Virus record (IMG/VR): IMGVR_UViG_3300009034_000016
Span: 16,478-80,477 of that record
Strand: one strand, 5' to 3'
Source: a virus
DNA length: 64,000 bases
A program made the position numbers and the translations under genes. The notes under the pieces are model-generated. The model was not told the DNA's origin. It saw only the letters and a list, made by a program, of their open reading frames with translations, and did not search any database. Positions 10,278 through 57,343 of the stretch are shown here, piece by piece; the stretch's first letter is position 1; every line of letters begins with the position of its first letter.

Positions 10278-10291
10278 TGCACACGCGTGCA
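10278..10291. promoter_or_regulatory. TGCACAC palindrome, site 1
   Basis: TGCACACGCGTGCA, with outer bases extending the symmetry to CCGTGCAC...GTGCACGG (10275-10294). It ends one base before the GGGAGGGG SD of the gpJ gene. One of ten related sites; see Findings. Confidence 0.7.
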
Positions 10292-10307
10292 CGGGAGGGG
10301 CGAGAAA

Positions 10308-12467
10308 TTGAGTGACGAGCTAATTCAGGTTCCCGACTTTAAATTCAGCACATTTTACTACGCCGATATTCTCCGGGCGTTGATTAACTATCGCAGATCT
10401 AATGTGCCGGAGATCACCGACGAGAACCCATTAGAGCCCTATATCCAGTTAGAGCGGGCCTTCGCCCTGGTAGCCCACCAGAATAATGTGCTCCTTGACT
10501 TTATTGCTAAGGAAACGCTTCTCCCAACCGCCCAGCTACGACAGAGCGTTGCATCACACCTGAAGATGATTGATTATGAACTGAGCGAGGCTTCTCCCGC
10601 GGTTACCGAGATCGTAATGAAGCTGACTAAATTATTTACCTCTTCATTTCAGATCCTCCCGATTTTATCACGAGTTGCAACGGAATATTCCGAGGAGCAG
10701 CCGGCGATCGCGTTCGAGGATTTACTTGGGCTTAACATCGAGAGGACCGATCAAGTTAGTAAGGTGTTCGCTCTGGAAGACACTACTTACACGGACTACA
10801 CTACGGAAGCTAATACCGATGCATCCTATTTCTCTCCCTGGGCGACCCCGGCAGCCGGAGACAAGTTGTATGTCGGCCACGAGGGGATCATGTGGGATAA
10901 ACTTAACGTAATATTTCAAACCGGGGGCAGTGGGCTCACGGGGATATGGGAGTACTACGACGGTGAGTGGTCCGATGTTAATCCCTCAAGGGTCAAAATA
11001 GATGGGGATAAGCTGGTGGTTGATCTCACTTCCTTATTGGGTGCCAATGATCGGTCTGGAGCGGTTGTCAGGTTAATTCTCATATCCACCTCAGCCTACG
11101 AGGAAATGACATCACAGTGGGGGGATCCCGGGATCGCCGAGTGGGGAGCCGGGGACATCAATTACGCCGAAACTACCGGGTTCCTCGGGCAAACCAGCCC
11201 TTCCGAAGAGGCTAACCAATATGTCGTTGGATCGCAGTGGCATAGCCTCGAAGAAACAGACGGAACCGCCAATCTAAGTCAAGACGGAGATGTGGATTAT
11301 GACCTGCCCCAGACACTAACGAAACGGTGGGCAAGGGGCGAGATCAATGCTTACGAAGCATACTGGATGAGATACCGTATTATCAGCGTGAGTTCTCCTG
11401 CCGGACCGAGTATCGACCGGCTTAAGGTCGATACCGGCAATCAGCATATCATGCACTCATTTACCCAGGGGCTCACGGTAGAGGACGATCCCCTCGGGAC
11501 CTCTAACGGCCAGGCTAATCAGTCGTTTACATTTACCCAGGGGCCGTTGATAGGCGGTTCCCAGAAAGTCTATGTTGACGATGGGTTGTGGACGGAAGTC
11601 CGAAACTTTCTTAATTCCGGCCCCGGGGATGGGCATTATATCCTGTCGGTTGATGATGATGGAATAGCTACGGCAACATTCAGCGACGGGGTAAGCGGGA
11701 GAATCCCGCCATCGGGGAATACTATCCGCTCGGAATATCGAATCAATGCGGAGGAGGATGGTAATGTGGGGGCTGGGACGATTGGGGTGAATAAATCCGG
11801 GATATCCTTCGTAACGGATATTGTCAATCCCAGGCAGGCAATCGGATGGACGGCAAAGGAGGGCTCCACGCCTGCTCTGCTTGAAATAGCTAAGCTTGAA
11901 GGCCCGGCTAGTGTGAGGACTCTTGAGAGGGCGGTCGGACCCTCGGATGTCAGGGATTTGGCAGTTGCCTACACGACGGAGGAGGGATCGAAGCTGGTGA
12001 GTAGAGCCCGGGCGGTGGAAGAAGCCTACGGGGCCAAGACGGTGTTATGTGTAGTAGTGGGCACGGGGGGGGCAACGCTCAGCGAAGCTCAGCAAACCGA
12101 GCTTGAGGAGTATTTCAACGGCAACCTCCTGACGGGCAAGGACGGAGTACTGGTTCTAAATCAACGAGTCTATGTTGATAACTATACTCCCAAGATAATA
12201 GATGTTACGGCGACGGTCTATGGGGGTAAGAAGGACTTGATTGAGACGGCTTTGAAGGTGCTGCTCGACCCGGAGGCAAGAACGGCGGACGGCCTGCGTT
12301 GGGAATGGGATTTTGGGGAGACTGTCCCGACATCAAGGATCATAGCCCAGATATTTATCGTGGCTGGTGTGAGACAGGTAGAACTCACAGCCCCGGCCGC
12401 TAATGTTGTCCTGACCGTGAACGAACTACCGAAAGTTGGGACGCTCAGTATAACAGTGAATCCGTGA
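10308..12467 (+). CDS. Baseplate protein J-like (gp6/gp47 family)
   Basis: A 719-residue protein. TTG 10308 is preferred over an upstream in-frame GTG because SD GGGAGGGG lies 7 nt before it. The C-terminal 250 residues are typical baseplate J: SVRTLERAVGPSDVRDLAVAY, RVYVDNYTPKIIDVTATV and a final PAANVVLTVNELPKVGTLSI. The middle holds an inserted domain of about 250 residues with ITGIWEYYDGEW-type beta structure. In P2-like baseplates gpJ forms the wedge ring that binds fibres through gpI, encoded next. Confidence 0.85.
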   Translation: MSDELIQVPDFKFSTFYYADILRALINYRRSNVPEITDENPLEPYIQLERAFALVAHQNNVLLDFIAKETLLPTAQLRQSVASHLKMIDYELSEASPAVTEIVMKLTKLFTSSFQILPILSRVATEYSEEQPAIAFEDLLGLNIERTDQVSKVFALEDTTYTDYTTEANTDASYFSPWATPAAGDKLYVGHEGIMWDKLNVIFQTGGSGLTGIWEYYDGEWSDVNPSRVKIDGDKLVVDLTSLLGANDRSGAVVRLILISTSAYEEMTSQWGDPGIAEWGAGDINYAETTGFLGQTSPSEEANQYVVGSQWHSLEETDGTANLSQDGDVDYDLPQTLTKRWARGEINAYEAYWMRYRIISVSSPAGPSIDRLKVDTGNQHIMHSFTQGLTVEDDPLGTSNGQANQSFTFTQGPLIGGSQKVYVDDGLWTEVRNFLNSGPGDGHYILSVDDDGIATATFSDGVSGRIPPSGNTIRSEYRINAEEDGNVGAGTIGVNKSGISFVTDIVNPRQAIGWTAKEGSTPALLEIAKLEGPASVRTLERAVGPSDVRDLAVAYTTEEGSKLVSRARAVEEAYGAKTVLCVVVGTGGATLSEAQQTELEEYFNGNLLTGKDGVLVLNQRVYVDNYTPKIIDVTATVYGGKKDLIETALKVLLDPEARTADGLRWEWDFGETVPTSRIIAQIFIVAGVRQVELTAPAANVVLTVNELPKVGTLSITVNP

Positions 12468-12503
12468 AAAAAACTCTGTGCCTAAAGAATTATAGAGGAA
12501 TTT

Positions 12504-13685
12504 ATGCCTTACCCGTTTAACATCTACGATTTTATAATCGAGCCCATCCGGCTTCAGGATCAAAAAACCAAATTTTTGGAACGGTATCTGAAGGGGCCGC
12601 AGAACGTTGCGAACACGACATGGGATAAGATTCAGAGTGTCAAGCAGTTATTCGATTGGGAACTCACCCCGGATGAGGCTCTTAGATATCTACTCTGGCA
12701 TGTCGGATTTACACGGGATCTTGATTACATCGTCCAGGAGCTTGATTACGATGACCTGCGACGACTTCTCGGCCTTGCCATTCCGATGTGGAAAAGTAAG
12801 GGAGTCCCTAGCGGGCTTGAGGGCACCGTTAGATCTCTTGTTGGTAGAGACCCACAGATATTCGACTGGTTTCATTTAAGATACGAGGAGGGCAAAACAT
12901 ATTTCGGGGAAGAGTGGCTGGGAGACGATCCGTTTTTCGTAGAGGAGGTTGGGGCGGCCGCAAGAGATGAGCACTACTCCATTGCTTTTGTTGAAGATAC
13001 TTATGAGAGCATAAACCAGACTTTACTCGCCGATATTTTTCGTTTATGTAGACCCCTCGGTGAGCGGTTTGATATATTTCTGTGTAATATATTTGACCAG
13101 TTTACAGTTGGGTTTGATAGATGGAGTGTTTGCGAAGGAAGCGATAATCTTTCTTTAGAAAATGGGGTTTTAGTTTACGGATTTGGGTTGGGTGGCCATG
13201 TTAAATTTAATATAAATGAGGCAGTTAATTGGAAATCCTATATAACAAAATGGAGAGTAAAGATAGAGCATCAATCGACTTCCAATCAAACATTTGGAAT
13301 TAGCGTATATATGTATCCTGGTTCTGGAACTTACGATGATCAAATACTTTGTATTTACAGAAATGATACAAAAACAGCGTCAATTTGGAAACGTATTAAC
13401 GATTCTTGGACGGTGGAGGCGACGACATCTTATTATATTCCTCCAGAAGCTTGGTTTACTTGGACAATTGTCATAGATCATCAATACGAGGGTGAGACTG
13501 AGGAGCGCATTGTTATCAAATGGTATTTGGACGGAGATTTAGTTATAGAGAAGGACTGGCCGAAGGCGGACGTTCCTAATCAGGGAACGGTGGGTTTCAG
13601 AAGAACCGTTAATACTAAATGTTATATTGATTGGGTTAGGTTACAGAAATTGCCGATAGTTCCCATTAATGTTGGGCCGGCATAG
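12504..13685 (+). CDS. Tail protein I-like with C-terminal lectin-like domain
   Basis: A 393-residue protein. Residues 1-200 match P2 gpI-like tail proteins: LPDEALRYLLWHVG-type helix, LRRLLGLAIPMWKSKGVPSGLEGTV and the FRLCRPLGERFDIF end. Residues about 205-390 form a beta-rich domain like concanavalin A lectins (GFGLGGHVKFNI, WFTWTIVIDHQYEG, VGFRRTVNTKCYIDWVRL). DNA of the second part, from about 13080, is clearly AT-richer than the first, suggesting a recently swapped adhesin domain. Confidence 0.75.
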   Translation: MPYPFNIYDFIIEPIRLQDQKTKFLERYLKGPQNVANTTWDKIQSVKQLFDWELTPDEALRYLLWHVGFTRDLDYIVQELDYDDLRRLLGLAIPMWKSKGVPSGLEGTVRSLVGRDPQIFDWFHLRYEEGKTYFGEEWLGDDPFFVEEVGAAARDEHYSIAFVEDTYESINQTLLADIFRLCRPLGERFDIFLCNIFDQFTVGFDRWSVCEGSDNLSLENGVLVYGFGLGGHVKFNINEAVNWKSYITKWRVKIEHQSTSNQTFGISVYMYPGSGTYDDQILCIYRNDTKTASIWKRINDSWTVEATTSYYIPPEAWFTWTIVIDHQYEGETEERIVIKWYLDGDLVIEKDWPKADVPNQGTVGFRRTVNTKCYIDWVRLQKLPIVPINVGPA

Positions 13686-16190: not shown

Positions 16191-16262
16191 CTTGACTAAT
16201 CTATCCTTTCTGTATTTTCGATTTAACCTAACTTTTTAGAAACTAAATAGTTGGGGGTGGAT

Positions 16263-16925
16263 ATGAAAGATAAACTTCTCATAATCCCTGGGCATCTTGG
16301 TAAGGATACCGGGGCTATCGGTAAACCCTCTGAAGACATCGTTGGTGACTTCGGCCCCCCGACCTCCGAGAAGGAATGCTGGATCAATCTACAGCAGGCG
16401 ATTGGATTTTGTATTGCCTGGGCGGCAAGTGACCTGTGCACACGCGTGCAGGTAACCCTTGTAGTTCCAAACGGTGAGGTAAAGCCCGGGCTGATTGATG
16501 TAATTGATATGAAAGGTCCCAAGAAATTCACTTTAGAGAAACGCGTCTTGCTGGCAAATTCTCTCTCGGCGGACATGGTAGAATTACATCAGAATGCTTT
16601 TTCCAGTTCGGTTGTCCAGGGGAGCGAGATCTGTGTTTATAGGAAGTTCAGGCGAGGGAAACTGTCAGAGAATACCATAGTAGCCCGGGCAATGCTGGAG
16701 GAGTTGGAAAAGCTTGGGCTCCAGAGCCGGGGGGTCAAGGAGCGCCCAGATTTGTATTCGCTCAGAAAGACAAAACATCTATCTTTCGTAGTAGAGTCGG
16801 GGTTCATTTCAAATCCCAGAGAGCTACGGCTTCTTGATGTGGACTGTGATGGATTTAACGAGAGTGTGGGTTTGGCGCTCTGGCAGGGGTATTCCAAAGC
16901 ATACAAAAAGCTGAAAGGACTATAA
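16263..16925 (+). CDS. N-acetylmuramoyl-L-alanine amidase (endolysin)
   Basis: A 220-residue Amidase_3-type enzyme cutting the bond between muramic acid and the peptide stem. ATG 16263 is preferred over GTG 16251; GGGGGTGG precedes it. Zinc ligand candidates are H11 in GHLGKDTGAIG, E36 or E38 and H109 in ELHQNAF. E178 in VVESGFISNPRE is the usual catalytic Glu. No cell-wall-binding domain is attached. The holin-like gene follows after 2 nt. TGCACACGCGTGCA (16437-16450) lies inside this CDS. Confidence 0.88.
   Translation: MKDKLLIIPGHLGKDTGAIGKPSEDIVGDFGPPTSEKECWINLQQAIGFCIAWAASDLCTRVQVTLVVPNGEVKPGLIDVIDMKGPKKFTLEKRVLLANSLSADMVELHQNAFSSSVVQGSEICVYRKFRRGKLSENTIVARAMLEELEKLGLQSRGVKERPDLYSLRKTKHLSFVVESGFISNPRELRLLDVDCDGFNESVGLALWQGYSKAYKKLKGL
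16437..16450. promoter_or_regulatory. TGCACAC palindrome, site 2
   Basis: TGCACACGCGTGCA within the amidase CDS, with outer ACCT/AGGT extending the inverted repeat. It is identical to sites 1 and 4. Conservation inside a coding sequence argues that the DNA motif itself is selected. Confidence 0.6.
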
Positions 16926-29946: not shown

Positions 29947-31176
29947 ATGAAGGTGAAGATATTACAGATCGGTGACATCCATCTGAGAAGCAAGCACTTG
30001 GATGAGAATCTAAAATGCTGTGATTTTGCAGCTGGTAAGGCTGAGGAAGAAAAGCCTGACATCATAATGGTTACCGGAGATGTCTTCGATAGCCAGGTTG
30101 CTCTTGATAGCGAGGTAGTCCGAGCGGGAATTGAATTTCTTGGCCGCTTAGGAGACGTTGCCCCGATGATCATTGTCCAGGGGACAAGGACTCATGACCG
30201 TGATAGTCTTAAGGCCCTACAGAGACTCAAGACAGCACACGATGTCCATATATCGTTTGAGCCGGAGACGATTGTATTTACTGGTATTAGCTTTATAAAA
30301 ACGGTTGCCGAGAATTATTCTCAGGCCAGCCACCTCAACGCCAAGCTCCTGATTAACACCCTACCCGCGCCCCCCCGCCTGGCCGGTGAAGGGAGTTTGG
30401 AAGAGCAGAGTCAGAACCTTGCCAGACACTTGGAAACGATAATCACGGGCTTCGGGGCATCGGCCGCAGAGCTCGATTGGCCACACGTGATCGCGGGACA
30501 TATAAGCATAAAGGGGGCAAAAATTTCAGATAAGCAGATAATGTTCGGAATGGACGCCGAGCTATCAAAGGAAGCTTTTGTCCCAGCGAAGGCGGACCTG
30601 ATATGTCTGGCTCATATCCATGTAGCACAGAGAATCGGAGACAACATATTTTATTGCGGGTCTACATCCCGCCTGAACTACGGAGAGGACGAAGGCAAGG
30701 GGTTCTGGATGCATGAGTTGTCCTGGGGGAAGGAAAGAGATCCTGTCTCTCAACGATTTTGCGTGGATAGAAAGAGCAGATTCATAGAGACGCCGGCCAG
30801 GAAGATGATCTTGATTGAGGAGGACCTGACCGGTGAGGGGATTGACAGATTCAGGAACGACCTTATAGGGGCTGACTTCGAGGACTGCTTTGTCCGGGTT
30901 AGATATCGGATTAAGGAAAAAGACGTCCATCGGCTCGGGAGAAAAGAGGTTGAAGGTATAATGAATAAGAGTGGAGCTTACGAAGTAAAGATCGAGGTTG
31001 AGGTTGTCCCGGAATTGCGAGTGCGCTGCGAGAACCTGGTAACCGCCGGAACGCTGAGGCAGAAGATTGTAGCAATGCCCAGGGAGGAGCCCGTGCCCGA
31101 GTCGGTCTTGGAAAAAGCTGATAAGCTCGAGGACCTAAATAAGGAAGAGATAGAAACGGGGGTAATGGAATTATGA
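29947..31176 (+). CDS. sbcD: SbcD-like (Mre11) nuclease subunit
   Basis: A 409-residue protein; ATG 29947 has GGAG 9 nt upstream. Metallophosphoesterase motifs appear in order: GDIHLRSKHL, VTGDVFDSQ, a GNHD equivalent written GTRTHDRDS, then AGHIS and LAHIHVAQ. With SbcC it makes an ATP-dependent complex that processes DNA ends and hairpins, here likely supporting phage recombination and replication like T4 gp47. The usual GNHD and GHxH are modified but metal ligands remain. Confidence 0.85.
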   Translation: MKVKILQIGDIHLRSKHLDENLKCCDFAAGKAEEEKPDIIMVTGDVFDSQVALDSEVVRAGIEFLGRLGDVAPMIIVQGTRTHDRDSLKALQRLKTAHDVHISFEPETIVFTGISFIKTVAENYSQASHLNAKLLINTLPAPPRLAGEGSLEEQSQNLARHLETIITGFGASAAELDWPHVIAGHISIKGAKISDKQIMFGMDAELSKEAFVPAKADLICLAHIHVAQRIGDNIFYCGSTSRLNYGEDEGKGFWMHELSWGKERDPVSQRFCVDRKSRFIETPARKMILIEEDLTGEGIDRFRNDLIGADFEDCFVRVRYRIKEKDVHRLGRKEVEGIMNKSGAYEVKIEVEVVPELRVRCENLVTAGTLRQKIVAMPREEPVPESVLEKADKLEDLNKEEIETGVMEL

Positions 31177-31192
31177 GCCAAGGAGAGGTAGC

Positions 31193-31279
31193 ATGACTAT
31201 GGACGTTCCTCTTATTAAGAGACGAGAAATGGTTATTAAGAATAAACAGACCAAGAGAAGGAGCAAGCCAGAATATTGA
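31193..31279 (+). CDS. Small basic peptide between sbcD and sbcC
   Basis: A 28-residue Lys/Arg-rich product (MTMDVPLIKRREMV...) with GGAGAGG 7 nt before ATG, filling the sbcD-sbcC gap. Small but has a good SD. Confidence 0.4.
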   Translation: MTMDVPLIKRREMVIKNKQTKRRSKPEY

Positions 31280-31295
31280 GAAGGAAAAATAGAAA

Positions 31296-31397
31296 ATGAT
31301 AAAACTTATTTTGGTATTGATTTTATTTCTATTTAACATTGTTCTCGGCCTTAAACTGGCCAGGCTGCATAGAGAGGATAGGTGGAAAAATGATTAA
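31296..31397 (+). CDS. Single-TM micro-protein
   Basis: A 33-residue product with AGAAGGA before ATG. Residues 2-19 (IKLILVLILFLFNIVLGL) form one membrane segment with a positive cytoplasmic tail. Overlaps the sbcC start by 8 nt, so it may be coupled to it. Confidence 0.45.
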   Translation: MIKLILVLILFLFNIVLGLKLARLHREDRWKND

Positions 31398-33579
31398 TCA
31401 GCGCATTCGATTGGTAGGGTTCACCGGGATCCAGAGTGGGATGGGCTTAGAGGAAATAGATGTAGACCTCCGGGGCCTCAGAGGATTAGTTGCTATCTGT
31501 GGGGACAACGGTGCGGGTAAGTCTACCTTCTTAGAGTGTCTGCAACCATTCCGGCAGATGATTAGCCGGGAAGGGGGTTTGAAAGATCATACTTATTTGA
31601 GCCAGTCTGTCAAGGAACTCTGGTTTAGCATGGACGGAATCGATTATCACTCAACGGTGCTTGTTAATCCGCAGAAAGAGAAAAGCACGGGAACGCTATT
31701 GCCCGGGACTAATAGCGGGCTGGTTAGTGATTACGATACCGAACTCAGAAAGCTGATAGGTTCCCCCACTATGTTCATGAACTCGGTATTCGCTGGACAA
31801 AAGAGTAAAAGGTTTACCGAGTTGACTCAGGGTAATCGAAAGGAACTCTTCATTGAATTTCTCGGCCTGGATCGGTTAATAAATTACTGTCAGATCTCCC
31901 GGGGCTGCGAGAAGTTAATTAAGGTCAAGCGGATGGGGGTGGAGGAGGAAATCCGCAGGCTTCGGGATAAAGTAGGGGACTTAGACGACCTGAGACAAAG
32001 GGTAAAAGCAAAGGAGGGGGACCTCGAGACATTCAGACAGTACCTCGCTCAACTGAGCAAGCAACTTACCGAAGCAAAAGGTCAGCACAATATCCTGGAA
32101 GCTCAGGCGATAGAGGTGGTTAAAAAGAGGGGAGAGATCGAGGCCCTGAAAGCGAAGATAAATGGCAAGGAGAGCGAGATCCGGGCGGAAGTAACTGGGA
32201 ACTTAAATAGGCTGGAAACGCATAAACGAGGACTTGAGAGGGAGGTTGAAAGTGCGGATAGAGACATAGCCGATGCGAAGGCTAAAATCTCCAGAGCTGA
32301 GGGGCAGCTTGACTCAATAGCAGAGATAGCATCAATAGAGCCCTGGGCCATCGAGAAGATGAAAGCCGAACTAAAGCTCATAGACAATAAAGTAAAGCAA
32401 CTGAATCAAGTCGAGAAAAGATATGCTGGTGTGGATGCTACCATTAAGGCGAAGGTGGGGGAGGTTAAGAGACTCGAGGGCCGGCCAGCGGACTGCAAAA
32501 TCAATGATTGTGTATTTATTTCCGGGGCTCTTAAGGCTAAAGAAGACCTTGAGTCGTCAAGGCAGATGATGATAGGGTTGGAAAGGGAGCTTATAGCCCT
32601 ACCGGAACTAAATGAGAAAAAGGACTTACTTTCAGATAAGCTGTCAACCCTGGCGGAGAACCAGCAAAAGATTGCCGACCGGGAACATCTTAAGCAGAGA
32701 ATAAAAGAGAATGAGAGGATTCTGGCCGTTAAGGGAAATAAATCGGGAGAACTTCACGAAGAGATTGAGAAGACCTCGGCGTCAATCCAATCCTTAAGTG
32801 TCCAGTCTGCCCTTGATAGGAGCCAGGAACTTAAGGATCTGTCCCTGGAGTTGAACAAGGCCGAGGAGTCGATCGATGAAGATGTTGTGTTCCAAAGGGA
32901 TAAATTAAAAACCGAAATAGAGGGGATACAGAATACCGTCAACGAGACAGGGGAGAAAATTGCACAGGTGGATGCTAATCTAAATTCACTTAAGAACGAA
33001 ATAGCTGAGGCCGAGAAATCTCAGGAGGAAATTAAGTCGCTGTCGGAGAGGGTTAAATTTCTGGAATCCGAGCAATCGGATTGGATATTTCTGGGAAGGA
33101 TCTGTGGGAAAGACAACCTACAAGCACTTGAGATAGATGCCGTGGCTCCTACTGTCACGGGATATGCGAATAGCCTATTAAGTGCGTGTTATGGATCCCG
33201 GTTTAATATTACTTTTCAGACTGTCAACGAAAAAGGGAATGAAACTTTCGATGTAATTATAAATGATATTAAGCAGGAAAGGCCAGTTCTAATTGAAAAT
33301 GTTTCCGGGGGGGAGGAAGTATGGATACTTAAAGCGTTACGGTTGGCTGTTACACTGATGATGAAATCAAGATCTGGTAGGCGGTTTCAAACTCTTTATT
33401 CAGATGAAGAGGATGGTGCTTTAAATCCCACAAAAAGAGAACCTTATGTTCAGATGTATCGAAAGGCAATGGAAATTGGTGGATTTGAGGTAGCTTATTT
33501 GATAACCCATTCCCCGGAAGTGATTCAATTATGCGATTCAATAATGAGGTTTGGAGAGGGTGGTATTAGTAGAGAATAA
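31390..33579 (+). CDS. sbcC: SbcC-like (Rad50) ATPase subunit
   Basis: A 729-residue SMC-type ATPase. Walker A GDNGAGKST at residues 38-46; long coiled-coil arms from about residue 180; signature VSGGEEVWILKALRLA and Walker B-like LYSDEEDGAL near the C-terminus. The hinge carries CKINDC (C-x4-C) instead of the usual C-x2-C zinc hook. Partner of SbcD encoded just upstream. Ends 9 nt before a TGCACAC palindrome and the DnaA-box region. Confidence 0.88.
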   Translation: MINQRIRLVGFTGIQSGMGLEEIDVDLRGLRGLVAICGDNGAGKSTFLECLQPFRQMISREGGLKDHTYLSQSVKELWFSMDGIDYHSTVLVNPQKEKSTGTLLPGTNSGLVSDYDTELRKLIGSPTMFMNSVFAGQKSKRFTELTQGNRKELFIEFLGLDRLINYCQISRGCEKLIKVKRMGVEEEIRRLRDKVGDLDDLRQRVKAKEGDLETFRQYLAQLSKQLTEAKGQHNILEAQAIEVVKKRGEIEALKAKINGKESEIRAEVTGNLNRLETHKRGLEREVESADRDIADAKAKISRAEGQLDSIAEIASIEPWAIEKMKAELKLIDNKVKQLNQVEKRYAGVDATIKAKVGEVKRLEGRPADCKINDCVFISGALKAKEDLESSRQMMIGLERELIALPELNEKKDLLSDKLSTLAENQQKIADREHLKQRIKENERILAVKGNKSGELHEEIEKTSASIQSLSVQSALDRSQELKDLSLELNKAEESIDEDVVFQRDKLKTEIEGIQNTVNETGEKIAQVDANLNSLKNEIAEAEKSQEEIKSLSERVKFLESEQSDWIFLGRICGKDNLQALEIDAVAPTVTGYANSLLSACYGSRFNITFQTVNEKGNETFDVIINDIKQERPVLIENVSGGEEVWILKALRLAVTLMMKSRSGRRFQTLYSDEEDGALNPTKREPYVQMYRKAMEIGGFEVAYLITHSPEVIQLCDSIMRFGEGGISRE

Positions 33580-33587
33580 AGGGATTA

Positions 33588-33602
33588 TGCACACCGTGTG
33601 CA
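33588..33602. promoter_or_regulatory. TGCACAC palindrome, site 3
   Basis: TGCACACCGTGTGCA, a perfect 15-bp palindrome around one central base, immediately left of the first DnaA box (5-bp gap). Confidence 0.75.
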
Positions 33603-33606
33603 TAAG

Positions 33607-33784
33607 TTATCCACAGAGTTATCAACAGGGTGTTGATAATTTATTTCGTGAATATTTATTTAAAATCTATCAACAGGGTTATCAACAACCACTGACTACT
33701 ATATATGGTATTATATTTGAAACTTAAATACAATAGATGGTATTTTTAAAATGAAACTTCATGTCTCTAAAAAAGTTATCCACA
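33607..33784. other. Probable replication origin (DnaA-box array)
   Basis: TTATCCACA at 33607-33615 and 33776-33784 match the DnaA consensus exactly. TTATCAACA at 33619-33627 and 33679-33687, its reverse complement at 33631-33639 and CTATCAACA at 33667-33675 are one or two bases off. Five starts (33607, 33619, 33631, 33667, 33679) keep a 12-bp phase. Between and beyond are AT-rich stretches that could unwind. It lies directly before an initiator-like gene and a helicase-loader gene. The gap 33580-33866 holds no ORF. Confidence 0.8.
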
Positions 33785-33866
33785 GCCCCTATAAAGATCC
33801 TAGTATAATAAGATCATAGATATATAGGAAGATTATAGCTGTAAGGGGGTTGTAGGGGGGGGATAG

Positions 33867-34526
33867 ATGGAAGAAGATAATCGGTATTATGATATTCCGA
33901 TCTATTTACTTGATGTGATAAAAAAATTAGCCCCAATAAAAGTCGCGGTCCTAATATATTGCGCTGAAATTATTTATGGATTGGGAGCTAAAAGGGTTTT
34001 TATAGACCAAGTCGTTATGCAATTAGGAATTAAGAAAAAAGAGGCGGAGGTGGTTTTAAATAAATTAGTTAGAATGGGGGTAATGATTAAAGAGGGAGAG
34101 TGTTATAGTTTTATTAATATAGAAAAACTAAGGAATATATCACGAGGCTGGGAAAAATATAAAACGAAAGTTATAAATCCATCAGAACATAAAACCGAAA
34201 CTATAACGATCACAGAAGAAGAGAAAAGAATACTTAAAGTCCTCTGTGAAATAAAAGGATTCCCAAGAGGGTATAAAGAGGATGTAATAACAATAAAACT
34301 TATAAGGGCCTTAGAAGAGGAATTTCCAATAGTTGACCCCGAGGAATTGGTAAAGAATTGGGTTGTGTATAAACAAGATCAACCATTTAAAAAAAGATCA
34401 TCACCTCGAGCGCAGTTAAGAAACCAGTTTAAAATGGCGTCGCAGCGGGGGATGTTCCTTAAGTCGCCGGGACTAAAAGGGGAAGGGAGAAAATATGCAG
34501 GAAAAGTCGCTCGGTATAAAGGATAA
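33867..34526 (+). CDS. Replication initiator / replisome organiser-like protein
   Basis: A 219-residue protein. The N-terminal 90 residues look like a winged helix (IKVAVLIYCAEIIYGLG, VFIDQVVMQLGIKKKEAEVVLNKLVRMGVM). The C-terminal half ends in RAQLRNQFKMA, as in DnaD-like or lambda-O-like organisers. It sits right after the DnaA-box array and overlaps the DnaC-like loader gene by 32 nt, the usual O-P arrangement. Confidence 0.65.
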   Translation: MEEDNRYYDIPIYLLDVIKKLAPIKVAVLIYCAEIIYGLGAKRVFIDQVVMQLGIKKKEAEVVLNKLVRMGVMIKEGECYSFINIEKLRNISRGWEKYKTKVINPSEHKTETITITEEEKRILKVLCEIKGFPRGYKEDVITIKLIRALEEEFPIVDPEELVKNWVVYKQDQPFKKRSSPRAQLRNQFKMASQRGMFLKSPGLKGEGRKYAGKVARYKG

Positions 34527-35157
34527 CCCTCGATGCCAACTATGTGGTGATACAGGGATTGAGTATATAGGGGAACGTGCAGTCCGTGTATGTCAATGTG
34601 TCCTGGAAAATAAAATTAAAAAGGCTGTTGGGGAGACATTTGTCAAGAAGGGATTTAAAGAATACATTCCTAAGAATGAAAGCCAAGTAAGGGCGTTAGG
34701 GGCATTTAAGAGAAACCTGGAAGGGAGTTTTTATTTATATGGTGACTTTGGGAGTGGAAAGACACACCTACTGTCCGCACAGTACTCGGCTATGGTTAGG
34801 GATAGGTCAAAAAAGGAAATGGTGTTTATGACGGACATAGAGTATGTAAACAGCGTGCGTCAGAAAGACCCGTTAATAAAAATAGAGGACATAAAAAAGG
34901 CGAAGGACGGGATCCATTTATTTTTTAAAGACTTTGGGAAGACGACCCCAACTGCCTGGGCCCTCGAGGAATTATTTAATATCATTGATGCTATCTATAG
35001 CAGGCAAGGAGAAGGGGAAAAATTCGGGATCTCAATAGCAAGTAACTCCGAGCTATCCGTAATCGCCGACCGCTACGATATAGAGGGGACGGCGCTGGGT
35101 GGGGCGATAGCTAGGCGTATTGAGGATATGTGTGAGGTGTATAAAATTAACAATTAA
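34495..35157 (+). CDS. DnaC-like helicase loader (AAA+ ATPase)
   Basis: A 220-residue AAA+ protein with Walker A GDFGSGKT at residues 83-90 and a degenerate Walker B near IHLFFKDFGK. An N-terminal zinc site is likely (C14-x2-C17, C33-x-C35), as in DnaC/IstB-type loaders carrying C-x2-C...C-x-C. It should deliver the host replicative helicase to the origin marked by the preceding gene. No helicase gene was seen in the window. Confidence 0.8.
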   Translation: MQEKSLGIKDNPRCQLCGDTGIEYIGERAVRVCQCVLENKIKKAVGETFVKKGFKEYIPKNESQVRALGAFKRNLEGSFYLYGDFGSGKTHLLSAQYSAMVRDRSKKEMVFMTDIEYVNSVRQKDPLIKIEDIKKAKDGIHLFFKDFGKTTPTAWALEELFNIIDAIYSRQGEGEKFGISIASNSELSVIADRYDIEGTALGGAIARRIEDMCEVYKINN

Positions 35158-35180
35158 TAGGAAAAGGGAGGACAATAGGG

Positions 35181-35372
35181 ATGAAATGCTGTAATCTAAA
35201 GGAAGTTGACATCGTGAGGAACGGAGCAGGGCAGATAATGAAGGTAGAGGAGAACTTCAAGGATTGCCTAGAGAAGAAGTGTAATAGTTGGAATCCTAAT
35301 AGGGGAGAATGTGCAACATGTAATAGCACGGGGAGAAGAGATGGAATTCATATGGTTGTAGAAACCAAATAA
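35181..35372 (+). CDS. Small cysteine-rich protein
   Basis: A 63-residue protein with six cysteines: CC at 3-4, C29, C34 and C44-x2-C47 (GECATCNSTG). Probably a zinc-stabilised mini-domain. SD GGGAGGAC precedes ATG. Confidence 0.6.
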   Translation: MKCCNLKEVDIVRNGAGQIMKVEENFKDCLEKKCNSWNPNRGECATCNSTGRRDGIHMVVETK

Positions 35373-35410
35373 GAGCAATAGGGAACTAACGGGATGTTTC
35401 AAGACGTCCA

Positions 35411-35443
35411 GTGAGAATCCGGCCACCGAGGTTTGAAAGGAGG
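35411..35443 (+). repeat. Copy of the GAATCCGGCCACCG-GGTTTGAAAGGAGG repeat
   Basis: This gap sequence is nearly identical to 43901-43933, where it encodes the end of a gene plus the next SD. Here it is outside any clear ORF, reading as SENPATEV-stop in one frame, as if only the tail of a lost gene remained. Confidence 0.55.
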
Positions 35444-35454
35444 AAAGTTATAAT

Positions 35455-35709
35455 ATGGGAATACAAGCTTATTCGACAACGGGAAAAAGAATTGTAAGAA
35501 AGAGTGGAACCGTATCTTTTTATGGGAAGAAATATTTTGCGTCTTTTCTAATATCAAGGATAGGACAGGAAGTTTTTATTAGAGATTATGGGGACGAGAT
35601 ATACGCCACTGATTCAAACGGATTTTGTGCATCTATACAAGAATGGAAACCAAAAGTTGCTGCAAGAAAAGAGACGAGCCGGAATCCGGCAACTGGTCGG
35701 TTAAACTAA
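35455..35709 (+). CDS. Small protein with ETSRNPATG tail
   Basis: An 84-residue protein after AAAGGAGGAAAG. The body (GTVSFYGKKYFASFLISRIGQEVFIRD) is beta-rich, SH3-like. The C-terminus ends ETSRNPATGRLN; ETSRNPATG recurs at the end of the unrelated protein at 43672-43926. Confidence 0.6.
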   Translation: MGIQAYSTTGKRIVRKSGTVSFYGKKYFASFLISRIGQEVFIRDYGDEIYATDSNGFCASIQEWKPKVAARKETSRNPATGRLN

Positions 35710-35728
35710 CAAGAAGAGGAGGATTGTT

Positions 35729-36784
35729 ATGATATGTCCAAAATGCGGTAGGTTAATCATTAAACCCGAACATAACTTAACCGACGAGGGAAAGTGTACG
35801 AACTGCGGGGAGTTATTGATGACCCCAGAACAGCTTAAGGAGTTTGCTACGGATGAGGAAATGAGTAAGCTCAAGGTGTACTCTAAGTCGAAGGACGGGG
35901 GTGTTGGGAAAGAGTTATCGCTTATCACCTACGCCGATATAAGACCCCCAAAGAACAAAAAAGAGGCTACGGACTTAAGTAGAAAACTGATCCAGATCAA
36001 GGAGGGTATAGACGCGAGCTATTTTACAATGGGAGCAATCCTTCAGGTATTCTACGATGAGGAATCATTTAAGCTGCTTGGGCACAATACCTTCCGGGAG
36101 TATGTTGACAGCATGCTTGGATTTGGGTGGCGCAAGGCGATGTATCTGATAGGGATCGCGGAGGCTTTCGGGGAGAAGGGATTGGTCCTCAGCGAGAAGC
36201 AGAAAGCCGGGATTGAATGGTCAAAAATGCGAGAGTTGGCCGCTCTTTTTAAGAAAGGAATACTTAATCAGGAAAACCTTAACGAATGGCTTGGACTCGC
36301 AAAAACTCTTGGAACTCGGGAGTTAATCGAAAAGGTCAAGGAAGCGAAAGGATCGGCACCTACACCAGAAGAAGATAAGATGGTAGGCTTTATGATAAAA
36401 CTCTTCCCCGGTCAGGTCAAGATCGTTAACCAGGCGATGGAGCAGGCTGCGCAACTAACCGGCTGGGAAGTTAAGGGGGGTAACCTCGAAATGATCTGTG
36501 CGGAGTTCCTGGGGGGCCTTCAGGAACCGGTGGCGAGGTTAAATAAACTTATTGAGAGCATAGAGAGGGCCTATAAGGTAAAGATCGTCTATGAATCGGT
36601 AGAAGTAAAAACGACAGGGGAGCCGGCCCCGGGGAAAGCCAAGGGGAAGAAGGACAATCCCGATAATAATGGTAAGCCCAGTAATAAGGAGGGCAGCCCC
36701 AGCAAGGGAAAGGCTAACCCTGGCAAGGGTAGCAAAAAGGAATCCGGCAAAGAAGAGGATAACGGCCTCCCTTATGAGGAGTAA
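35729..36784 (+). CDS. Zinc-ribbon protein with DUF3102/ParB-like helical region
   Basis: A 351-residue protein. Residues 3-30 contain CPKC...CTNC, a C4 zinc ribbon. The middle (IKEGIDASYFTMGAILQVFYDE, then GHNTFREYVDSMLGFGWRKAMYLI) resembles DUF3102-type helical proteins. The last 60 residues are Lys/Gly/Pro-rich and disordered. DNA binding is plausible. It is the nearest thing here to a ParB-like protein, but no ParB catalytic motif was seen. Confidence 0.5.
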   Translation: MICPKCGRLIIKPEHNLTDEGKCTNCGELLMTPEQLKEFATDEEMSKLKVYSKSKDGGVGKELSLITYADIRPPKNKKEATDLSRKLIQIKEGIDASYFTMGAILQVFYDEESFKLLGHNTFREYVDSMLGFGWRKAMYLIGIAEAFGEKGLVLSEKQKAGIEWSKMRELAALFKKGILNQENLNEWLGLAKTLGTRELIEKVKEAKGSAPTPEEDKMVGFMIKLFPGQVKIVNQAMEQAAQLTGWEVKGGNLEMICAEFLGGLQEPVARLNKLIESIERAYKVKIVYESVEVKTTGEPAPGKAKGKKDNPDNNGKPSNKEGSPSKGKANPGKGSKKESGKEEDNGLPYEE

Positions 36785-36877
36785 ATGGGGGAATACATCC
36801 TTTATCGGAATAAACGTCTCTATGGAGGTAAAATGGAACTCTGGGGCACTATTTTGAACTCCTCAAGGAAATCTTAG
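36785..36877 (+). CDS. Micro-ORF
   Basis: A 30-residue frame starting at the base after the previous stop with GAGGAG upstream. A second ATG at 36833 follows its own GGAGG. Either start may be used; function unknown. Confidence 0.35.
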   Translation: MGEYILYRNKRLYGGKMELWGTILNSSRKS

Positions 36878-36878
36878 A

Positions 36879-36956
36879 ATGGCTAACGACAAAACTCGAC
36901 CAGAGGACTATCAATCGGAACTCGGGCAGGATCCCGGACAACTAAGGAGGAATTAA
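36879..36956 (+). CDS. Micro-ORF
   Basis: A 25-residue acidic frame beginning MANDKTRPEDYQSEL with AAGGA upstream, ending 3 nt before the next gene. AAGGAGG inside its end serves that gene. Confidence 0.35.
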   Translation: MANDKTRPEDYQSELGQDPGQLRRN

Positions 36957-36959
36957 ATT

Positions 36960-37778
36960 ATGGCGAAGAAGGGAGAAAGCTATCCAAATTGTCTCGGAGG
37001 CTATGAGCCATTCGAGACTAACAAAGACCCGGAGTGTGACGGGGGGGAACGTAAAGTCGGGGAAAAGTTAAAGACAGAACCAGCCTGTCTATGGCATGAC
37101 CGATGTATAGCCGTGCAGACGGTATCACAGGTCAGGGGGGTGACCCCCGAGACCTTATTGAAGCAGATGTCAGTTGGTAAGATAATGGAAATGTATCAGA
37201 ACGAGGCTCAAAAAGTAATGGAAGAAGAAATAGCTGGGACTGAGTCTCAGGTTCCCCCTGATGTGGAGGAGCACCTCGATTTACCAGGGCAGTATATCAA
37301 CTTCAAGCTCGGAACAAATAAGGCCAGGAAATTTGTAGCGGAATTACAGGACTTCTATGAAGCGATACAAAACTTTATGGTCAAGCTACAGGACCTTACA
37401 GATAAGGTCAATCAGGCATTAGGGCAACCGATTAAGAAGTTGCATGCCGAGGTACGGAAATCCAAAGCACCTAGGAGAGCCAAACCTATTGCTGGACTAA
37501 TGGCCCGGGAAGAGGCGGATGTCGCTAAGATTGCCAGGAAGATGCGTATGCCGTGGTATCAGGCGAATAGCAAGGGGGGGTACGTGGTAATTCAGGAAGG
37601 GAAAATTCTCAGGATACCGAAAAACTGTGAGAATCCTTTCAGGAATAGCTCGGCATGGGGATTGGTCTTCAGGTCATATCAAACGGGGGGAACACTGTCC
37701 GAAATAATAAGCCGAGCCAGGGAACGTCTGAGAAAGGTTCGCAGGCTCAGAGCTTCGGATAGTAAGTTAAGGAGATAA
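36960..37778 (+). CDS. Unknown protein with N-terminal cysteine cluster
   Basis: A 272-residue protein. Four cysteines (11, 25, 43, 49) in the first 50 residues suggest a zinc or Fe-S site (ACLWHDRCIA). A coiled-coil lies near residues 125-160, and a basic beta domain follows (GGYVVIQEGKILRIP). The last 20 residues are strongly basic. No family recognised. Confidence 0.55.
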   Translation: MAKKGESYPNCLGGYEPFETNKDPECDGGERKVGEKLKTEPACLWHDRCIAVQTVSQVRGVTPETLLKQMSVGKIMEMYQNEAQKVMEEEIAGTESQVPPDVEEHLDLPGQYINFKLGTNKARKFVAELQDFYEAIQNFMVKLQDLTDKVNQALGQPIKKLHAEVRKSKAPRRAKPIAGLMAREEADVAKIARKMRMPWYQANSKGGYVVIQEGKILRIPKNCENPFRNSSAWGLVFRSYQTGGTLSEIISRARERLRKVRRLRASDSKLRR

Positions 37779-37784
37779 GGATTA

Positions 37785-37952
37785 GGCTCCCGGCGGCGAA
37801 TATTAAACGAGCACCCGGCGTGATTAACCAAGGCAAGGCGGGGAAATAATGGGCAGGTGCAACCTGTTGGCCGCAGGGCTCAGTGGGTTAGCCGGAAAAC
37901 CCTAAGAGCGTGTTGGAAACAATCACCTGCCCTGCCCTAAATTGGAAGGGAG
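37785..37952 (+). ncRNA. Structured leader RNA R2
   Basis: The 178-nt gene-free gap contains GGCTCCCGGCGGCGAAT (37785-37801), shared with R3, and a stem GGGCAGGTG/CACCTGCCC (37851-37859 with 37924-37932) enclosing smaller hairpins such as GGGTT/AACCC. CTCCC (37787-37791) can pair with GGGAG (37948-37952), the SD of the next gene. This layout suggests a translational regulator; no known class recognised. Confidence 0.55.
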
Positions 37953-46028: not shown

Positions 46029-46042
46029 TGCACACGCGTGCA
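46029..46042. promoter_or_regulatory. TGCACAC palindrome, site 4
   Basis: TGCACACGCGTGCA, touching the GGAGGAG SD of the next gene with only CG between. Confidence 0.7.
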
Positions 46043-48041: not shown

Positions 48042-48608
48042 ATGGCAATAACAATACTCGGTTTTGATCCCGGCTCGAGGGTAACCGGCTGGGGAGTTAT
48101 AGAGAAGGACGGTTCTGTCCTAAAGTGCCTTGATTATGGGGAAATTAGGTTATCGGGAGTCCCAGGACATGCCCGTACGCTTCTATCCGTTGGGGTGAAG
48201 GAGATAGTGCGTTATCGTTCTCCGGCTGCCTGCGCAGTAGAGGACTTTGTAGCCAGTCCGGGAAGGAGGGCCTATCGCCGGGTTCCGGCAATGCAGGACA
48301 TTATGATGGGCAGCATAGTGGGAATAATCACCGATGCGATATATACAGTTGGTCTAAGGCCGGAGATGGCGATCGCCCCGCCCTGTGAGATCAAGAAAGC
48401 GGTGACTGGGCAGAGGAACGCGACCAAGGCGCAGGTCAGGGATATGGTGCGTCGAATTCTGGGTATTGAAAGATGGAAATCGTTACAGGAGAATCGAAGA
48501 GGGGTGAGTTCTCATTGTGCGGATGCCCTGGCGGCCGCTATCTGGTACGCTCACTCCCTGGACGTCAATAAAATAATAGAGGTAATGTCCGAAAAGGTAG
48601 AGGGATAG
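48042..48608 (+). CDS. ruvC: RuvC-like Holliday-junction resolvase
   Basis: A 188-residue RuvC-fold protein; AGGAGG precedes ATG. Catalytic candidates are D9 (GFDPGSRVTGWGV), E67/D68 (CAVEDFVAS), H158 and D161 (SSHCADALAAAIWYA). It should cut four-way junctions made during phage recombination or packaging, alongside SbcCD. RuvA and RuvB are absent. Confidence 0.85.
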   Translation: MAITILGFDPGSRVTGWGVIEKDGSVLKCLDYGEIRLSGVPGHARTLLSVGVKEIVRYRSPAACAVEDFVASPGRRAYRRVPAMQDIMMGSIVGIITDAIYTVGLRPEMAIAPPCEIKKAVTGQRNATKAQVRDMVRRILGIERWKSLQENRRGVSSHCADALAAAIWYAHSLDVNKIIEVMSEKVEG

Positions 48609-48639: not shown

Positions 48640-48942
48640 TTGGAACCGTCTCAATATTTATTGGAAGCCAAGGGAGGAGTAATTAGAGATAACCCCCTTT
48701 TAGATATTGTCTTCTCGAAGGAGGAGGCGGAGGCCGGTAACTTTGCACACGGTGTGCAAATAGAAAGGAGACCACCCCGCTATGATTTATTTCAGCAGAA
48801 GGAAGACCCCCCGGAGGCTTCCCCGGGCCCTAACCGAGAAGGAAGTAAGGTTGTTATTAAATCAGCCCAACGGGGGGGCTACTGGCCAGAGGGACAGGGC
48901 AATCTTGGAAGTCCTTTACGGATCGGGGCTGAGGGTAACTGA
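48640..48942 (+). CDS. Doubtful ORF overlapping the recombinase start
   Basis: A 100-residue frame from TTG that overlaps the recombinase gene for 161 nt. The first 45 residues look protein-like, but no SD is evident and the rest is Pro/Gly/Arg-rich, typical of an alternate frame. Possibly a remnant of an N-terminal recombinase domain; weak. Confidence 0.2.
   Translation: MEPSQYLLEAKGGVIRDNPLLDIVFSKEEAEAGNFAHGVQIERRPPRYDLFQQKEDPPEASPGPNREGSKVVIKSAQRGGYWPEGQGNLGSPLRIGAEGN
48744..48758. promoter_or_regulatory. TGCACAC palindrome, site 5
   Basis: TGCACACGGTGTGCA, extended by TT/AA to 48742-48760. Lies 5 nt before the AAAGGAG of the recombinase gene. Confidence 0.75.
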
Positions 48943-49381
48943 ATTGATCTTACTGAGGATAGGAGATGTTGACTGTAGGGCAAGAAAGGTTAGAGTTACG
49001 GGGAAGGGATCTAAGGACCGGATAGTCCCCCTAGGGGAAGTAGCTCTAAATGAGCTTGAGAAATATCTTGGTTCGGCCCGGGGCGAGTTACTCGGAAACG
49101 GGGACTGTGAGATGCTTTTCCTGAACTATGCGGGGAGTGGTTTAAGCCGGCAGGGGGTTTGGAAGATAATCAAACGATATGGTCAGGCGGCCGGGATCCA
49201 GGATATTAGTCCCCATATCCTACGCCATTCATTCGCTACTCATCTGCTTGATCATGGGGCTAACCTTCGGGCTATTCAGGAGATGCTCGGACATAGTGAG
49301 ATTGCAACGACCCAGATCTATACTCACGTAAGTAGAGAGAGGCTCAGGGTTCTATATAATCAATATCATCCGAGGGTATAG
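48782..49381 (+). CDS. Tyrosine recombinase, catalytic domain only (Xer-like)
   Basis: A 199-residue protein containing the full Xer-type catalytic set: R51 (YGSGLRVTEL), K75 (GKGSKDRIVP), H145 and R148 (PHILRHSFATHL), H171 (LGHSEIATTQ) and Y180 (IYTHV). Normal XerC/D are near 300 residues; the N-terminal core-binding domain is missing. It could resolve phage dimers at a dif-like site or integrate the genome. Start ATG 48782 with AAAGGAG 11 nt upstream, directly behind palindrome 5. Confidence 0.85.
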   Translation: MIYFSRRKTPRRLPRALTEKEVRLLLNQPNGGATGQRDRAILEVLYGSGLRVTELILLRIGDVDCRARKVRVTGKGSKDRIVPLGEVALNELEKYLGSARGELLGNGDCEMLFLNYAGSGLSRQGVWKIIKRYGQAAGIQDISPHILRHSFATHLLDHGANLRAIQEMLGHSEIATTQIYTHVSRERLRVLYNQYHPRV

Positions 49382-49991: not shown

Positions 49992-50227
49992 CCCCTAACG
50001 ATGTAAAAATAAAGTGCGTGTGCGAGATGAGCGAGGTCTGCATGATCAGGGCGGAAGTCCGGACCGCGTTATTCAAGTGGGTAGAGAGACACGGGGAGAC
50101 TATAAGCAGACTAACGATAGACTGGGACTGCTCAATGCAGAGAAGGCCCGATATGATAAGTCAGTCAGTCGAACCTAAAGACAAATTAGATCCCCATGCA
50201 CACCGTGTGCACGGCAAAAAAGAGTGA
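49988..50227 (+). CDS. Small unknown protein
   Basis: A 79-residue protein from ATG 49988, again an ATGA overlap. KIKCVCEMSEVCMIRAEV has three Cys. Palindrome 6 lies in its last codons (HAHRVHG). Function unknown. Confidence 0.5.
   Translation: MTPNDVKIKCVCEMSEVCMIRAEVRTALFKWVERHGETISRLTIDWDCSMQRRPDMISQSVEPKDKLDPHAHRVHGKKE
50197..50211. promoter_or_regulatory. TGCACAC palindrome, site 6
   Basis: TGCACACCGTGTGCA inside the end of the 49988 gene and 19 nt before GGGAGG of the next. Confidence 0.7.
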
Positions 50228-51797: not shown

Positions 51798-51811
51798 TGC
51801 ACACGTGTGCA
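51798..51811. promoter_or_regulatory. TGCACAC palindrome, site 7
   Basis: TGCACACGTGTGCA, a perfect 14-bp palindrome in a short gap, 6 nt before TAGGAGG. Confidence 0.75.
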
Positions 51812-52011: not shown

Positions 52012-52025
52012 TGCACACGTGTGCA
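52012..52025. promoter_or_regulatory. TGCACAC palindrome, site 8
   Basis: TGCACACGTGTGCA between the 51829 and 52043 genes, directly before GGAGAAAGGAG. Confidence 0.75.
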
Positions 52026-52855: not shown

Positions 52856-52870
52856 TGCACACGGTGTGCA
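52856..52870. promoter_or_regulatory. TGCACAC palindrome, site 9
   Basis: TGCACACGGTGTGCA just after the MmcB-like gene. Half-sites TGCACAC also occur at 53018-53024. Confidence 0.7.
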
Positions 52871-56214: not shown

Positions 56215-56235
56215 AGGCTGAGATAGGAGTATATT

Positions 56236-56463: not shown

Positions 56464-56466
56464 TTA

Positions 56467-56703: not shown

Positions 56704-56707
56704 AAAG

Positions 56708-56723
56708 TGTTTCACGTGAAACT
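56708..56723. promoter_or_regulatory. parS-like palindrome
   Basis: TGTTTCACGTGAAACT matches 15 of 16 bases of the bacterial chromosomal parS sequence bound by ParB/Spo0J; its inner 14 bp are a perfect palindrome. It lies between the RHH gene and the next SD. It may recruit host ParB or act as the RHH operator. Confidence 0.65.
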
Positions 56724-56737
56724 GTCTGAAGGAGGTG

Positions 56738-56794
56738 ATGCTAATGGGCACAATGATTAAAGAAGATGTTTTAGTCATAGATCCAACTGGTTAA
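56738..56794 (+). CDS. Micro-ORF with perfect SD
   Basis: An 18-residue frame (ATG 56738 or 56744) behind AAGGAGGTGAT, complementary to the full anti-SD. The peptide ends VLVIDPTG. Such an SD without a longer gene suggests a leader peptide or a real micro-protein. Confidence 0.35.
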   Translation: MLMGTMIKEDVLVIDPTG

Positions 56795-56846
56795 ACTTTC
56801 TGGGGATGCGTGTAGGGGGAGCAGAAAACAAGCATAGGAGGGTACA

Positions 56847-57149
56847 ATGGATATAAAAATCGTATCTTGCTGTAGATGTGAGGGAACGGGGAAGGAATTA
56901 AACACTTTCGATCCCCGTGAATTGTCAATTGTTGGCGTTGGTGAGAGGAGAACAGCTTTTCATAACCCTGCACCAAGAAGCCAGTCCGGGCACTTGCTGA
57001 TGGAAGATGATTGCGAATATTGTCATGGCGCAGGTAAGGTGATGGAACTTCAACCAGCAGAGGACAGAAATGTCGGGGGCAAGAGCCTTGCCATGAGAAT
57101 GGGAGATTTGATAGTAGCGGGTGCGAGATGGCACACCATATCAAACTAA
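56847..57149 (+). CDS. DnaJ-type zinc-finger-like protein
   Basis: A 100-residue protein with GGAGGG before ATG. CRCEGTG and CEYCHGAG are CxxCxGxG units as in the DnaJ cysteine-rich region; two units form one zinc site. No J-domain. Overlaps the next gene by 22 nt. Confidence 0.6.
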   Translation: MDIKIVSCCRCEGTGKELNTFDPRELSIVGVGERRTAFHNPAPRSQSGHLLMEDDCEYCHGAGKVMELQPAEDRNVGGKSLAMRMGDLIVAGARWHTISN

Positions 57150-57325
57150 CCCTGGAGCAGGAGCTCAAGATAGTCAGTAGATACAAAGACGAAAAGAAGG
57201 CGCCGGGGAATATTGCAATCCCGTTCGGGATAAGTGTCCAGCGAGTGTGGATTATCTTAAGAAAGCATGGAGTAGTTAAGGCGGGAGACGGCTATGCTGA
57301 TCGGCGGTGTGAGATAGGGATTTAA
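57128..57325 (+). CDS. Helix-turn-helix protein
   Basis: A 65-residue protein. LTLEQELKIVSRYKDEKKAPGNIAIPFGISVQRVWIILRKHGV is a homeodomain-like HTH. Palindrome 10 lies 4 nt after its stop, so it is another candidate for the TGCACAC-binding regulator. Confidence 0.6.
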   Translation: MAHHIKLTLEQELKIVSRYKDEKKAPGNIAIPFGISVQRVWIILRKHGVVKAGDGYADRRCEIGI

Positions 57326-57329
57326 TTAT

Positions 57330-57343
57330 TGCACACGTGTGCA
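57330..57343. promoter_or_regulatory. TGCACAC palindrome, site 10
   Basis: TGCACACGTGTGCA between the HTH gene and the next gene, 5 nt before AAAGGGA. Confidence 0.75.

Follow-up and report, generated by a model that had tools for sequence, protein, structure and literature searches.

Dispersed TGCA palindromes across a siphovirus lineage and the phrog_17202 protein as their candidate genome-wide binder

A stretch of viral DNA of 64,000 nt (hereafter the window), corresponding to positions 16478-80477 of a linear IMG/VR virus record of 80,478 bp (IMGVR_UViG_3300009034_000016, here G000), harbours ten short palindromes built on the half-site TGCACAC, which raises the question of whether they form a true family of sites and which protein would read them. 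A direct pattern check found all ten at the coordinates and with the letters given in the original prediction, and its division of the sites into three centre types was borne out by a sequence check. Its claim of a density above chance also held, as TGCAC-N4/5-GTGCA appeared ten times in the window, whereas 300 shuffles of it that preserved the dinucleotides averaged 0.023 occurrences and never exceeded 1. The ten palindromes are confirmed to be real, and they behave as a single family of recognition sites, well in excess of chance. The reading proposed here is that one phage-encoded dimeric protein would recognise the ten dispersed sites in double-stranded DNA, each monomer reading the outer TGCA half-site and phage-specific inner bases (CAC in the window phage); the most likely candidate is the phrog_17202-family product encoded at positions 35729-36784. 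That a dimer of this product occupies such sites throughout the genome and silences or organises it is given an even chance. The sites are the following (SD, Shine-Dalgarno sequence; ORF, open reading frame):

10278-10291, plus strand: palindrome TGCACACGCGTGCA, before the SD of a baseplate-wedge-like gene
16437-16450, plus strand: palindrome TGCACACGCGTGCA, inside the endolysin/amidase-like ORF 16251-16925
33588-33602, unstranded: palindrome TGCACACCGTGTGCA, 8 nt past the stop of the SbcC-like gene and ahead of the operon with phrog_17202
46029-46042, plus strand: palindrome TGCACACGCGTGCA, intergenic, before an SD
48744-48758, unstranded: palindrome TGCACACGGTGTGCA, between the RuvC-like gene 48042-48608 and the tyrosine recombinase 48782-49381
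50197-50211, unstranded: palindrome TGCACACCGTGTGCA, within the 3'-terminal part of a 98-aa ORF, the next start being 31 nt on
51798-51811, unstranded: palindrome TGCACACGTGTGCA, intergenic, 5 nt past a stop
52012-52025, unstranded: palindrome TGCACACGTGTGCA, intergenic, 3 nt past a stop
52856-52870, unstranded: palindrome TGCACACGGTGTGCA, intergenic, 9 nt past a stop
57330-57343, unstranded: palindrome TGCACACGTGTGCA, 4 nt past the stop of the small helix-turn-helix (HTH)-like gene 57128-57325

The centres of these sites were RYRY (ACGT, ACGC, GCGC) or ACSGT, and seven of the ten were perfect palindromes when the centre base of the 15-mers was disregarded; the three asymmetric CGCG sites shared one orientation in the window, which is weak evidence (n = 3). 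An eleventh site, TGCACGCGCGTGCA, was located outside the window at record position 9321, so that the 80,478 bp record had 11 sites, compared to none for a reversed control pattern. Eight of the ten sites were intergenic, compared to 13% of the window (P = 3e-6); the script scored seven of ten outside called genes, and the site at 33588, which fell in a spurious 168-nt ORF after SbcC, was recounted as intergenic. Many sites stood 3-15 nt past a stop codon. As had been predicted, most of them preceded an SD, six being within 35 nt upstream of an SD or start and most lying between a stop and the next SD, while the single site within an amidase gene (16437, in the endolysin/amidase ORF) and the one beside DnaA boxes (33588, adjoining the TTATCCACA/TTATCAACA boxes) were both recovered. 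Regarding the genes around the sites, SbcD-/SbcC-like genes (a palindrome-specific nuclease) are encoded by the phage at 29932-33579 and end 8 nt before a palindrome and the DnaA-box-like repeats, and in the segment 48042-49381 a palindrome separates a RuvC-like resolvase from the short tyrosine recombinase that follows it.

IMG/VR was scanned for TGCACACGTGTGCA and its variants, giving many single matches, as expected by chance, together with contigs harbouring clusters. Whole-record counts amounted to 19 in G001 (a 27-kb contig), nine in G002, six in G003 and ten in G004 (77 kb), G002 and G003 being probably one genome, while lambda-like prophages of 22-40 kb had 3-5 sites per record; the reversed control pattern appeared 0 or 1 times in these 14-mer-clustered records. 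The identical 14-mer was maintained in G002/G003 (15 sites) and G004 (10 sites) despite 28-50% protein identity and G+C contents of 0.31 and 0.50. Of the 36 ortholog pairs between them, three had a site at most 150 bp upstream in both phages, which was reached in 0 of 20,000 random placements, but with only P = 0.04 if the sites were conditioned to be upstream of genes. Furthermore, the tail-gene fragments L021 and L030 had seven TGCACACCGTGTGCA sites in the gaps between genes. These two phage fragments look unrelated, and the TGCACACCGTGTGCA sites between their tail genes are near-identical, with TTT/AAA-like flanks.

Conservation in related phages was the test set by the original prediction, and the same architecture recurred in relatives. 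These form a deep lineage of siphoviruses of ~77-110 kb having the portal, XkdF protease, capsid protein and phrog_17202 in common, whose members showed dispersed TGCA-N6-TGCA palindromes with phage-specific inner letters, the window phage and two relatives presenting TGCACACGTGTGCA. In the cultured 80-110 kb siphoviruses with phrog_17202 homologues no TGCAC..GTGCA appeared, and the architecture was found by a de novo palindrome search. Stenotrophomonas phage DLP5 had 32 TGCAA-N4-TTGCA sites, 27 of which were TGCAATNNATTGCA, and Agrobacterium phage JP1 had 33 sites (as TTGCAAACRTTTGCAA), followed by L338C (47 sites), RHph_I4 (46), RcKickapoo (29), HJ05 (18), RHph_TM16 (17) and RcZahn (9), the highest number being 52 in one contig. 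TGCA-N6-TGCA was above shuffles in every lineage member examined. The exact 14-mer was discarded as proof, as VarioGold, DLP5, TM16, JP1 and others had diverged forms without TGCAC..GTGCA; therefore, only the architecture is in common. Arthrobacter phage Kitkat, with a short ParB and no phrog_17202, had no sites (0 vs. 0.7 in shuffles). No DNA closely similar to window positions 30000-37900 was found in the phage collection.

This diversity of inner letters bears on two alternatives, both of which are very improbable. The first is that a host transcription factor or a LexA-type repressor would read the sites, as suggested by spacing and half-site likeness alone (TGCAC-N4-GTGCA compared to the Fibrobacter LexA box and NtrC half-sites). 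However, the inner letters vary among phages of related hosts (TGCAC in Aval, TGCAG in VarioGold) and the identical 14-mer appears in phages with G+C contents from ~0.3 to 0.66, and therefore the phage rather than the host seems to set the site; a non-exhaustive search of the window phage identified no CI/LexA-like binder. The second, also raised by the original prediction, is that the palindromes fold as RNA hairpins ahead of ribosome-binding sites and act on translation or on the stability of the mRNA, which would agree with most sites occupying the gap from a stop codon to the following SD in the window, G001 and L021/L030. Against it, the hairpin stem would be merely 5-7 bp long, the relatives keep the outer TGCA while the inner letters change and are frequently unpaired (TTGCA-N6-TGCAA in KarBoss), many sites are found mid-gene, as in DLP5, and the asymmetric variant runs in both orientations to transcription in other phages (Aval, G007).

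With regard to the binder, phrog_17202 was what the window phage and G002-G004 had in common besides the portal, protease and capsid genes, and it was the sole non-structural protein present in all eight lineage genomes first compared. Moreover, among the clustered records it appeared in precisely the three that had no ParB. An independent scan of IMG/VR with TGCAATCAATTGCA, a different 14-mer, yielded 44 records, in which phrog_17202 was detected in 0/12 of those with one site, 1/6 with two, 3/5 with three or four and 14/21 with at least seven, including 11 of the 12 such records of 70 kb or more. In the case of JP1, chosen for its ParB, the profile revealed phrog_17202 only after the sites had been seen. 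The binders originally put forward, a ribbon-helix-helix product (56467) and an HTH product (57128), were not supported, as neither had a homologue in the site-bearing relatives compared, and only 57128 had a PHROG match, a weak one. The candidate and its surroundings in the window are the following:

33603-33866, unstranded: AT-rich intergenic region with TTATCCACA/TTATCAACA DnaA-box-like repeats (read from the sequence), a possible replication origin
34495-35157, plus strand: DnaC-like helicase loader (profile match), same operon as phrog_17202
35729-36784, plus strand: phrog_17202-family protein of 351 aa (profile match), candidate binder

The window protein matched the phrog_17202 profile with E = 2.5e-29 and had N-terminal Cys pairs resembling a zinc ribbon, with matches that were not significant. 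An AlphaFold model built with 20 homologues, an earlier three-sequence model having been poor, predicted a helical core at residues 77-206 (predicted local distance difference test, pLDDT, mostly 74-94) and helices across most of 227-282. In this model, helices 122-130 and 134-147 around an invariant RKA.Y motif are compatible with an HTH; a strand-helix-helix-like pattern at the C-terminus was read by eye. A SAP DNA-binding domain was found in one homologue (G002); the homologue of DLP5 is DLP05_067.

Furthermore, nine of 13 named phages had a TGCA-N6-TGCA site close to where the phrog_17202 gene starts, in eight of them 64-183 bp upstream: DLP5 (64 bp), RcZahn (74 bp), RcKickapoo (82 bp), L338C and RHph_I4 (84 bp each), HJ05 (130 bp), KarBoss (180 bp) and VH2_2019 (183 bp). 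In JP1, the site was at the start of the annotated or longest ORF of phrog_17202. The chance of an upstream site per phage is roughly 2-10%, given 10-47 sites per genome, and the thirteen phages are not independent because L338C and RHph_I4 are near relatives. Six further contigs had a site 52-103 bp upstream of phrog_17202, and in G004 and G002 one was found ~94-116 bp ahead of the gene immediately upstream of it. The arrangement looks as if the phrog_17202 gene were autoregulated through the upstream site, its product binding its own promoter or operon region.

Several results weigh against phrog_17202 as the binder. The nearest site in the window phage, 33588, lies ahead of the operon 33867-36784 and not directly before phrog_17202. 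For the window protein, Pfam named no DNA-binding domain, and the phrog_17202 model had no significant match in the PDB. The exception among the large multi-site records, G055 (L404-L408; 101 kb, ~27 sites), had neither phrog_17202 nor ParB_N detectable, and Vibrio phage VHS1, with a phrog_17202 protein, was site-free under strict patterns, a few degenerate sites (6 vs. 0.9 expected) emerging with the generic pattern. The named phages are mutually non-independent, and the co-occurrence of protein and sites may in part reflect shared ancestry, because the whole lineage has the portal and capsid genes in common. In addition, only ~8 of the 32 DLP5 sites are intergenic by its annotation and many are deep inside genes, a placement that speaks against a role confined to transcription initiation. 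Finally, ParB_N predicts site number in the relatives about as well as phrog_17202, being detected in the TGCAATCAATTGCA scan in 0/12 records with one site, 0/6 with two, 1/5 with three or four and 15/21 with at least seven. These similar trends indicate that both are lineage markers, of which only phrog_17202 is present in the window phage.

The latter result bears on the alternative that the palindromes are parS- or KorB-operator-like sites of a spreading ParB-family protein, involved in phage-plasmid partition or long-range silencing. The core of chromosomal parS is CACGTG, and the 14-mer has the same core. ParB_N was found in 15 of 21 multi-site records compared to none of the 18 with one or two sites, and in 11 of 17 records chosen for clustered sites (including the site-poor VarioGold), with four of 35 single-match control contigs over the cut-off. 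Moreover, DLP5 persists as a plasmid prophage (PMC5834331) and encodes two ParB-domain proteins (PMC5834331, PMC7326821). The ParB-like proteins of DLP5 are DLP05_003 and DLP05_107. On the other hand, ParB_N (PF02195) was not found even at E <= 1 in the window phage, whose 80.5-kb record is perhaps incomplete, nor was it present in G002-G004 and G067, and ParB was thus discarded as a single universal binder. Neither could phrog_17202 be taken for a hidden ParB (hhalign probability of 1%, no significant fold match, a VirB core domain only at E = 4.6), and Kitkat has its short ParB without sites. Overall, this alternative is considered unlikely for the window phage.

A ParB-based system is better placed in the lambda-like prophages from or near Betaproteobacteria (Acidovorax Aval, Variovorax VarioGold). 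All of them, as well as G001, had ParB_N, and G001 presented a site ahead of its ParB-like gene. The group fits a ParB-parS-like system, judging from its sequences, because ParB is present, a variant site lies inside parB in five of the six prophages examined and the protein is similar to Spo0J/Noc/KorB. VarioGold had no TGCAC..GTGCA, but TGCAGACGTCTGCA-type sites after the capsid gene and before a late gene, in places matching the Aval sites. However, these prophages were found by searching for this very 14-mer, and the similarity may be a selection effect. As a separate observation, L211 (Aval), L210 (VarioGold) and G007-G014 encode a large ParB together with 4-6 GTGCASACGTSTGCAC sites, including one inside parB; no ParA was annotated in Aval or VarioGold. 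The prophages of this type look like carriers of an undescribed ParB-parS-type system.

Returning to a phrog_17202 dimer, the placement of the sites informs on what its binding would do. In DLP5, G002 and G001 the sites were spaced more evenly than expected at random, which was not the case in G000, G004 and RcZahn. The even spread and the intragenic sites favour a genome-wide role, while the intergenic bias before SDs in the window phage, like the site close to the gene of the candidate itself, speaks for a component of transcriptional control. It is also conceivable, although improbable, that the palindromes serve replication, recombination or packaging instead of transcription, for instance by binding a factor of recombination/annealing or of packaging. 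Homologues of phrog_17202 are neighboured by genes for RuvC and Cas4-like nucleases and have acidic C-terminal tails that recall by eye those of single-stranded DNA-binding proteins, the sites of DLP5, G002 and G001 are evenly spaced and those of DLP5 mostly intragenic, and in the window phage SbcCD is encoded and one site adjoins DnaA boxes. This is opposed by the strong intergenic preference in the window phage and G001, and by the promoter-proximal site ahead of the phrog_17202 gene. Transcription silencing or segmentation is considered somewhat more likely than a role in replication, recombination or segregation, although one does not rule out the other. Under the proposed silencing, the remaining sites across the genome would act as silencers or road-blocks, or as organisers of the phage DNA, in a manner similar to stoperators or RK2 KorB operators. 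A bolder proposal, advanced only tentatively, is that phrog_17202 founds a class of its own among DNA-binding proteins, which would act site-specifically and genome-wide: a chromatin or silencing factor of tailed phages that would read TGCA-N6-TGCA, with inner letters co-evolving with the protein, and would mark the genome every 2-8 kb.

Known systems were compared with these palindromes. The nearest published description is that of the Cluster O mycobacteriophages (Corndog and relatives), in which the repeat TGTTCGG-NNN-CCGAACA, of unknown function, was described in 2015 (PMC4351075). In both cases, near-invariant short palindromes (more than 30 in Cluster O) appear genome-wide, in intergenic and intragenic positions and with little orientation, a dimeric binder is predicted and a ParB-like gene is present (PMC4351075). 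The relatives analysed here likewise had many near-invariant symmetric sites not tied to promoters, and the window record had 11. By the published description, the Cluster O repeat differs in its length (17 bp), its half-site (TGTTCGG) and its confinement to one cluster. Cluster A stoperators, bound by the L5 repressor, are also dispersed (more than 20 sites), many of them in short intergenic spaces, but each is an asymmetric 13-mer that follows the direction of transcription and binds the repressor as a monomer (PMC9283540), whereas the window sites are symmetric without a required orientation and the asymmetric variants run both ways in relatives. A repressor homologue was not identified in the present analysis. 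Regarding RK2, the KorB operators are short palindromes through which one protein is able to act at a distance, although KorB is a ParB-family CTPase (PMC11790492), of which none was found in the window phage. The original prediction of operators, stoperators or centromere-like sites thus remains the best class of explanation, with a dimeric protein, while the binding itself is putative. Dispersed sites are familiar from other replicons: RK2 has 12 KorB sites with a central S, like the window 15-mers, and phage N15 has several inverted repeats dispersed on its phage-plasmid that are bound by SopB/ParB, with a ParA partner.

A search of the open literature (subscription papers being outside its scope) did not find the exact strings of the sites, and dispersed TGCA palindromes are a widespread and apparently undescribed feature shared by a large bacteriophage group, in which they probably dock a virus-encoded DNA-binding protein. 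The analysis indicates that the phenomenon extends beyond one mycobacteriophage cluster to a deep siphovirus lineage, which includes cultured phages (DLP3/DLP5 and the Rhizobium, Rhodobacter, Vibrio, Aeromonas and Agrobacterium phages), and supplies a consensus architecture tolerating phage-specific letters together with a testable candidate binder. If the proposed role is true, it would give a function to the orphan family phrog_17202 and a tractable example of a phage or phage-plasmid controlling or organising its whole genome.

Two further observations were made in this lineage. In VHS1, a different inverted repeat, AAGCT-N5-AGCTT, appears six times, mostly between 6 and 13 kb of the record. 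To the left of the window, G000 presents a single ORF of 1,539 aa (L007:4524-9143) adjoining the portal gene, an unusual fusion whose single product matches the XkdF-type phage protease, an ATP-dependent DNA ligase domain and two families of methyltransferases.

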